This document shows, in pieces, positions 20,020-21,572 of a DNA stretch of 64,000 bases. The notes beneath the pieces are model-generated. The model had not been told where the DNA came from and ran no database searches. It saw only the letters and a list, made by a program, of their open reading frames with translations. The DNA is taken from the NCBI GenBank assembly GCA_019096195.1, contig JAGTXK010000219.1, forward strand, positions 1,116,001 to 1,180,000. Direction: 5' to 3'. Source of the stretch: Boletus sp. NGJ. Lineage: Eukaryota; Basidiomycota; Agaricomycetes; Boletales; Boletaceae. The stretch's first letter is position 1; every line of letters begins with the position of its first letter. Made by a program: the position numbers and the translations under genes.

Positions 20020-21572
20020 TCAGGCATCTTCGGCAAAGCGAACCTTGGCTTTTGTTTTCTTCTTGGGTTTGTCCACATTAGTACCACCATTTGTTTCTAC
20101 ATCTTTACGTTTTTTTCGCTTTTCCTCCACTGTGGGTACTGCTTCTTCACTCGGTGCAACGAACGCCTCGGAACGTTCGGCACGGCGCTTGGATATCGCC
20201 TCTGCTTGCTATATGACATGTTAACTACGACGGTGTGAAATCAAACATTGCGCAAATACCTTTTGTTTTCGATGTTCCTCCTCTCGTGCTTGTTTTTGAT
20301 GAGGCTTAAGGAAGTACTCTCCCGACTCGAGTTGAAGGTCAACCTGGGGAGCAAAAGAGCTGAGAAGCTATCCTGTTGTCAACAACACACCAATACCTTG
20401 CGAGGTTGCTGGGGTGGTGGGAAGGGGGTGTAAACTTTCTTCGCATATTTTTCTTTCTTAGCGGGTGCGGGCTCGAGCCCAGCTCCTTTGCGAGCCGCCT
20501 CCTTGACCGCGAGCTTTTCGTTTTTTCGCATAGTCTTCTCAGACGTCTTGAGATGGCGCTTCCGGAACTGGGGGAGGAAACGGTCCCATGTCTCGTTTGC
20601 AAGTTTGGGGTCTTTGGCTAATTCTCGTCGAATCATGAGTTCCTACAAGGGCTTTCAACAGAGGCCAAGACCACGACAGAAGTGAACCAACTTTGATCTG
20701 GTATATCGGGTGTATGTTCTTCATGCAATCCAAAACGATCCGTCGCACCTCCTTCAACGATTTGTGTGGGCCCATAACGCTGACCGTGTTACCTTGGACC
20801 AAAACATAGCACTGCGTCAAGAGCTCAATCGCCTATTCCTTTCTTTCTAAGTACCTTGCAGCTTAAGGTGACGTCAAATTTACCTTGAGAGTGCTGCCGT
20901 CAGGACCGATGATGCGCTGCCTCCTTTTGACAAAGCGCTCTTTGTTCCGTACAAGATTTCCAATTTTGATGATGTCACACGCGATATCATCTTGGAGAAC
21001 CTTTGCCGCTTGGGTGAGTGCTACGCCTCGAGCGAGGAGCTTGATCATGTCGCGAGCTTTCAGCACAATATACGGGTCGTAGGTTTTACGCGTCGTGAGC
21101 ACAGACATAGACCCATGCACCAGATCAAGCTTGCATGCGATACCCTTTGTTCCGTCCAGTTAAACATAATCTAGATAACCTCAGGGACTCACATGATGTT
21201 CTAGGGTTCGGGTGACCGCACTCCACACTTCCCTCAGATACTTTTCTCTGTACTTCGGGAAAAGAGTTGCGAACGACGATTCTTCGGTAAACACCCCCCC
21301 TTTATTATGGTCTGGCAAAAAAGGATCGAGCTTCCACTTATGTGGTGTTAGCGTTGCGGTTTTGACACCAAGTTACGCTCACACTGAATGACCGTTAGTT
21401 TATCATATTGGAAACTTCGACGGCACCCCGCTCACTGGTCAATATCATCGGTGTCCCATGCTGATTCAACTCAAATTGAGAAAGAGATACGAGAGATACG
21501 GAGAGGCTCACGTTTGTCTTTGCGGTGCTTCTTGGACGAACTCTTGGCTAGTTCCCCAGCTTGGGCCGCCAT
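20020..21572 (-). CDS. KRR1: Krr1, small-subunit processome KH protein
   Basis: Krr1 is a nucleolar KH-domain protein of the SSU processome, needed for 18S rRNA production. The protein reads [20 protein letters not shown], then PWDTDDID, HWKLDPF and [22 protein letters not shown], then [22 protein letters not shown]. The signature [21 protein letters not shown] follows (KRR-R motif), then [40 protein letters not shown] and [13 protein letters not shown], with a basic tail ending KVRFAEDA. All parts align collinearly with yeast Krr1. One junction is remarkable: between DID and WK the frame closes only through a one-base exon at 21383. The ATG is at 21570-21572, 105 bp from the divergent NCBP3-like gene. 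Confidence 0.95.
21337..21435 (-). other. Two adjacent KRR1 introns flanking a candidate 1-nt exon
   Basis: On the minus strand intron A runs 21435-21384 (52 nt, GTGAGCG ... CTAAC ... CATTCAG). A single T follows at 21383. Intron B runs 21382-21337 (46 nt, GTGAGCG ... GCTAAC ... CATAAG). Exons end GACCA and resume TGGAAG, and with the T they read GAC CAT TGG AAG (DHWK). This matches the conserved DID-K/H-WK of Krr1. Treating the whole segment as one intron leaves the frame one base short. Confidence 0.8.

Follow-up and report, generated by a model that had tools for sequence, protein, structure and literature searches.

Exons of a single nucleotide have been described in plant, fungal and organellar genes, and here we examine a candidate of this kind in KRR1 of Boletus sp. 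NGJ (Agaricomycetes; Boletales). The gene lies on the minus strand of the window, by which we mean the 64,000 nucleotides at positions 1,116,001 to 1,180,000 of contig JAGTXK010000219.1 (assembly GCA_019096195.1); all coordinates are those of the window. The comparisons that follow draw on parts of the cited papers. The APC11 exon, present in Arabidopsis and in most land plants (PMC4674806, PMC8831610), resembles the one proposed for KRR1 in being one coding base between two GT-AG introns, essential for the frame and absent from gene models; as in APC11, where splicing of the exon is constitutive, a core cellular gene is involved and the arrangement is conserved over large distances. In contrast, APC11 is a nuclear gene of plants whose introns are long (in Arabidopsis the interval has 422 nt and the base lies 333 nt into it), and its product has been proved by cDNA and mutants, whereas the KRR1 exon is predicted from sequence and its introns are about 50 nt long. 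A second one-base exon of land plants, in VPS55, is likewise conserved, followed by a strong GTRAGT donor and missed by annotations (PMC8831610). It is alternative, with a second isoform or paralogue, whereas KRR1 was found at one place and no functional isoform that lacks the base can be in frame.

A fungal case is CYP621A of Fusarium, termed the first single-nucleotide exon in a fungal gene (PMC12940212). There too one base lies between short introns, in a 139-nt interval, and was inferred from orthologues, with additional backing from SRA reads. While the CYP621A exon belongs to one ascomycete genus, to a P450 of unknown function and to the base G, that of KRR1 belongs to a ribosome-assembly gene, extends across orders of Agaricomycetes and is T or C. 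One-base exons also lie between self-splicing mitochondrial introns in placozoan cox1 (PMC5436844) and Ophiostoma rnl (PMC12308204), where the base is similarly isolated by two adjacent introns and, in cox1, also preserves a conserved histidine; those introns are of group I or II, while the KRR1 introns are spliceosomal. Finally, the [D1,2] stwintrons of fungi (PMC12403724 among others) have, like KRR1 as we read it, two neighbouring short introns that are necessarily removed in succession. In a stwintron the inner intron sits inside the outer donor, between bases 1 and 2, and no coding base lies between the two introns, whereas both KRR1 donors are whole and a coding base is kept. A [D1,2] stwintron was rejected for KRR1 because both donors are unbroken GTGAGC with one exon base between them. 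In the open-licence papers of PubMed Central we found no single-nucleotide exon in a basidiomycete nuclear gene. The original prediction for this locus had called such exons rare, with APC11 as an example; that precedent holds, and VPS55, CYP621A and the organellar cases make the precedents wider.

Results

A single T between two complete introns

We consider it very likely that KRR1 in this bolete has a real, inherited exon of one nucleotide, the T at 21383, flanked by introns of 52 and 46 nt. Read along the minus strand, 99 nt separate the GACCA at the end of exon 2 (21436) from the TGGAAG that opens the following large exon (21336). The upstream intron (21435-21384, 52 nt) reads GTGAGCGG...CTAAC...ATTCAG and the downstream intron (21382-21337, 46 nt) GTGAGCGT...CTAAC...CATAAG; in each, the end of CTAAC lies 10 nt from that of the intron. 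Exactly one base is thereby left between two complete introns, each with a donor, a branch-like site and an acceptor. The letters and coordinates given for 21337..21435 in the original prediction, and the GTGAGC donor, CTAAC and AG acceptor it assigned to each intron, are all borne out.

With the T included, nine exons of 61, 25, 1, 144, 261, 141, 246, 84 and 189 nt join into an intact open reading frame (ORF) of 383 amino acids. Without it the frame breaks after DIDH, 62 residues are read and the 63rd codon is a stop; the base is required for both the reading frame and the conserved protein. In the proposed product it would supply the third base of the histidine codon in KPWDTDDID-H-WK.

The spliced product is KRR1, listed in some records under the alternative name Mis3, with Krr1 of PDB entry 5wlc, which we take to be the yeast protein, as its best PDB match (E 2.7e-128). 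The homology is full-length and includes the N-terminal KPWDTDDID-x-WK motif, consistent with the KRR1 component of the small-subunit processome, and the Pfam domains are common to the homologues. As had been predicted, the T yields DID-H-WK where the yeast motif aligns: the bolete protein reads KPWDTDDIDHWK and Krr1 KPWDTDDIDKWK. The nearest proteins, among the best 120 of 7329 matches, are from Boletales, headed by Imleria badia (89% over 383 amino acids), and KRR1 was found at one place in the 32.8-Mb assembly. KRR1 is essential in yeast.

Splice solutions for the 99-nt interval

Solutions were enumerated that remove either one intron or two, each no shorter than 30 nt, from a GT or GC donor to an AG acceptor. 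Twelve leave no stop in the stretch examined, and WKLDPFL is kept by three of these, each with two introns: the T (52 + 46 nt), a C at 21377 (58 + 40 nt) and a 7-nt exon, TGTGAGC. The first two give DIDHWK and the third DIDHVSWK. No single GT/GC-AG intron in the 99-nt interval restores the frame, in agreement with the claim that such an intron would destroy the rest of the protein. The six other introns of KRR1 measure 48-53 nt, so that a single 99-nt intron would be about twice the norm. The one-nucleotide exon of the original prediction is thus the best reading, and the relatives described below support it; the C and the 7-nt exon had been passed over. In our judgement the T is to be preferred to the C, since it follows the first AG after the branch-like site and is followed by a GTGAGC donor, and we infer that it, rather than the C or the 7-nt exon, would be the form used in this species.

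The 7-nt exon uses a second donor, GTAACT, and would create the junction GACCATGTGAGC-TGG, inserting Val-Ser (DIDH-VS-WK) either alone or as an isoform beside the one-base exon. It is in frame with canonical sites, GTAACT is not obviously a poor donor, and two genome models, P0003 from Chiua virens and P0081 from Amanita inopinata, read DIDHVSWK. However, Val-Ser is absent from all 22 transcript-like proteins in which exon 2 is present, the motif has no added residues in the Krr1 sequences aligned from the PDB search, and in seven of the 11 ORFs of relatives that span the interval (see below) a GT 6 nt after the donor is impossible, so that the 7-nt exon cannot be the shared solution. We regard it as quite improbable overall, though it may occur as an isoform in boletes.

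The chance of the arrangement was gauged with 200,000 dinucleotide shuffles of the 99-nt segment, its first 6 and last 3 bases held fixed. Of the shuffles, 0.036% contained AG-N-GTRAGY placed so that each part measured 40 nt or more, and none did so when CTRAY was also demanded of both. For the looser AG-N-GTR the corresponding frequencies were 3.5% and 0.005%. A scan of the 32.8-Mb genome for twin introns, confined to the strict pattern CTAAC-N(3,20)-YAG-N-GTRAGY-N(20,50)-CTAAC, gave one match, the KRR1 site. A reversed control pattern matched twice, and the strict pattern is therefore no proof by itself. A search of the same genome for a second copy of the 99-nt segment returned the self-match only.

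Unspliced ORFs of relatives carry the same phase conflict

Relatives were compared as protein sequences, with queries that included the histidine; searches of viral contigs and genome contigs gave no KRR1 relative at the DNA level. One search used exon 4 with the flanking intron frame as query and listed 120 of 400 proteins. In 34 of these K or Q directly precedes W, as an intron end NAG/TGG demands (the slash marks the splice site); the rest comprise 74 with an unbroken HW or KW, six that start after the W and six with other readings. Among sequences considered as outgroups, P0206, P0221 and P0240 have an intron before the W. A pattern search over 292 proteins, running from exon 2 in the shifted frame (x-L-T-S or similar, as ...CA/GT gives) through K or Q followed by W, recovered 11 ORFs that span the interval from exon 2 to W: P0097, P0179, P0182, P0184, P0189, P0193, P0194, P0197, P0199, P0205 and P0207.

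All 11 display the same phase conflict: one base is lacking between the phase-2 end of exon 2 and the phase-0 start of exon 4. All are also compatible with AG-N-GTR at a position that leaves 47-55 nt upstream and 44-53 nt downstream (52 and 46 nt in the window), and in each N is T or C, hence His. A comparison of orthologues for the intron-T-intron layout had been proposed with the original prediction; by back-translation the layout is common to the orthologues, every informative ORF being compatible with it, and is not peculiar to this genome. YAG-N-GTR within 44-58 / 42-56 nt was seen in 10 ORFs against 1.1 expected from residue shuffling (10 ORFs, P0097 excluded). Three further ORFs start inside the first intron: P0183 with one pyrimidine site, P0190 with two, and P0201 with two sites of which one has a purine. 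Seven of the 11 could be placed by the similarity of their exon 4, which is closest to Mycena in P0199 and P0207, to Crucibulum in P0182 and P0184, to Pholiota in P0179, to Serendipita in P0197 and to Pisolithus in P0097.

These ORFs bear on whether a base is simply missing from the assembly, or the gene copy is broken, and one ordinary intron closes the frame. A one-base gap is a usual sign of an error, and a single assembly of the species was examined. Against this, the phase conflict recurs in all 11 spanning ORFs, which come from other contigs; the assembly has a single KRR1 place with the rest of the ORF intact, and the segment has about twice the length of the other introns. We hold such an error to be very improbable.

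Gene models and transcript-like proteins disagree at the junction

We inspected all of the best 120 of 7329 proteins from the first homologue search. Twenty-four were assigned by us to a transcript-derived class because they are found in lgn or jgi contigs only, with one unbroken long ORF across the KRR1 intron positions (longest contig 1.2-8.7 kb, under 2 kb in 19 of 24). DIDHW is read by 22 of them and DIDQW by none; the other two (P0015 and P0097) start in a retained intron. Among the 96 genome models, DIDHW is read by 32 and DIDQW by 28; of the remaining 36, 28 have exon 2 with a different junction and eight lack exon 2 or match in some other way. The difference in H and Q between the two classes gives a Fisher p of 1.7e-5, for sequences that are not independent. 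In loose checks of other KRR1 junctions, 79 (exon 1/2), 96, 95 and 95 of the same 96 models pass. The exon 1/2 junction, which fails in 17 of 96, is also error-prone.

DIDQW could reflect one non-canonical intron of 98 nt (TG-AG or GT-AA), giving GACCAG-TGG and DIDQWK with no tiny exon, and the 28 genome models that read so speak in its favour. It was rejected because Q appears in no transcript-like protein, and N in the spanning ORFs is T or C; we give it next to no credence. All six Q models that we set against H counterparts, in hand-picked pairs, proved 87-98% identical to them: Suillus luteus P0013 and the transcript-like P0008 (98%), Agaricus bisporus P0128 and the model P0123 of another strain (97%), Botryobasidium P0142/P0138 (91%), Serendipita vermifera P0133/P0124 (90%), and P0104/P0084 and P0059/P0051 (87% each). 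Both Serendipita (Sebacinales) and Botryobasidium (Cantharellales) are members of Agaricomycetes. The two public models of Agaricus bisporus disagree at the His/Gln codon itself, which looks like an annotation artefact. Fitting only one intron, despite the extra base in the cDNA, would produce the Q in such models, the base then borrowed being the G of GT or AG.

Inserts could be extracted from 21 of the odd models. In overlapping categories, five start with V followed by S or R, which GTRAG would give, nine have S or R as the last residue, as expected of AG-N, and four have K, Q or E there, as expected of NAG; the fit to an intron-N-intron arrangement is suggestive only.

Structure of the gene

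The coordinates of KRR1 and of the alternative exons are collected in Table 1. Exon 2 has only 25 nt, so that consecutive exons of 61, 25 and 1 nt occur. About 105 bases from the start codon of KRR1, a frame that looks coding begins with an ATG on the plus strand (21678 onward); the two would be head-to-head genes and may share a promoter region.

Table 1. Exons, introns and alternative exons of KRR1 in the window.
Feature	Description	Position	Strand
Exon 1	61 nt, contains ATG	21512..21572	-
Intron 1	51 nt, GTGAGC...CAG, phase 1	21461..21511	-
Exon 2	25 nt, codes PWDTDDID + CA of His codon	21436..21460	-
Intron 2	52 nt, GTGAGC...CTAAC...CAG, phase 2	21384..21435	-
Exon 3 (predicted)	single T, third base of His codon CAT	21383..21383	-
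Intron 3	46 nt, GTGAGC...CTAAC...AAG, phase 0	21337..21382	-
Exon 4	144 nt, begins TGG AAG	21193..21336	-
Remainder	exons 5-9 and introns 4-8 (48-53 nt)	20020..21192	-
Exons 5-9	last exon with stop	21144-20884, 20832-20692, 20642-20397, 20343-20260, 20208-20020	-
Alternative 1-nt exon	C, between acceptor GTGAG and donor GTAACT; CAC, also His	21377..21377	-
Alternative 7-nt exon	TGTGAGC; Val-Ser insertion	21377..21383	-

Discussion

Several observations weigh against a one-nucleotide exon in KRR1. In this species the exon is predicted from genomic sequence, and the last exon base at the second donor is T, not G. The splice signals of the relatives are compatibilities under back-translation and not DNA letters, and the 11 spanning ORFs are not fully independent, P0182 and P0184 being near copies and P0179 and P0193 apparently related. 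A second compatible site exists in each of P0097 and P0207, and the partly spanning P0201 has two candidate sites, one with a purine. CTRAY is possible before the first acceptor in eight of 10 ORFs, but before the second in only four of 10. Lastly, the 32 of 96 genome models that read DIDHW may come from species that lack the layout, or may have been correctly annotated.

Consideration of the distances within the interval suggests how the exon might be spliced. The first acceptor and the second donor are one base apart and would presumably not be engaged simultaneously; each short intron would instead be recognized as a unit, by intron definition, and removed one after the other. That each has its own donor, branch site and acceptor suits intron definition and two successive reactions. 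Removal of the first intron first would place the next donor in CAT/GTGAGC, and removal of the second first would place it in AGT/GTGAGC. Two transcript-like contigs have lost later introns: P0097 keeps both introns of the pair, and P0015 keeps at least the end of the second, which implies that the intron pair can lag. A retention rate is not derivable from full-length ORFs, because retention elsewhere would drop them from the list.

We propose that the inherited layout would consist of exon 2 ending CA/ in phase 2, an intron, one pyrimidine, an intron, and /TGG in phase 0. It seems common to Boletales, Agaricales and a Serendipita-like lineage and is probably general in Agaricomycetes, and we infer that the exon would be old. 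Basidiomycete models outside Agaricomycetes (two Puccinia, Filobasidium, Kwoniella and Sporobolomyces) read DIDHW, and ORFs such as P0278 and P0270 are unbroken through this site. These suggest that the two introns may have been acquired one base apart in an ancestor of Agaricomycetes, no later than the base of the class. A further idea, which we think unlikely, is that the intron-N-intron unit, from that base or earlier, has been kept because its splicing, being slow and ordered, serves as a control point, where retention of either or both introns, of the kind seen in P0015 and P0097, would lower KRR1 output and couple ribosome assembly to splicing capacity.

Taken together, KRR1 would join APC11, VPS55 and CYP621A among the known cases of one-nucleotide exons, and stands out by its reach across orders and its role in ribosome assembly. 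If our reading is true, many database KRR1 models of mushroom-forming fungi misrender the exon, and this site would be wrong in at least some of the 64 genome models, out of 96, that lack DIDHW. For studying how splice sites one base apart are handled, the relatives would offer a natural series, with T or C as N and introns of 44-55 nt, and constitutive splicing in these fungi would long have managed without any exon to define.
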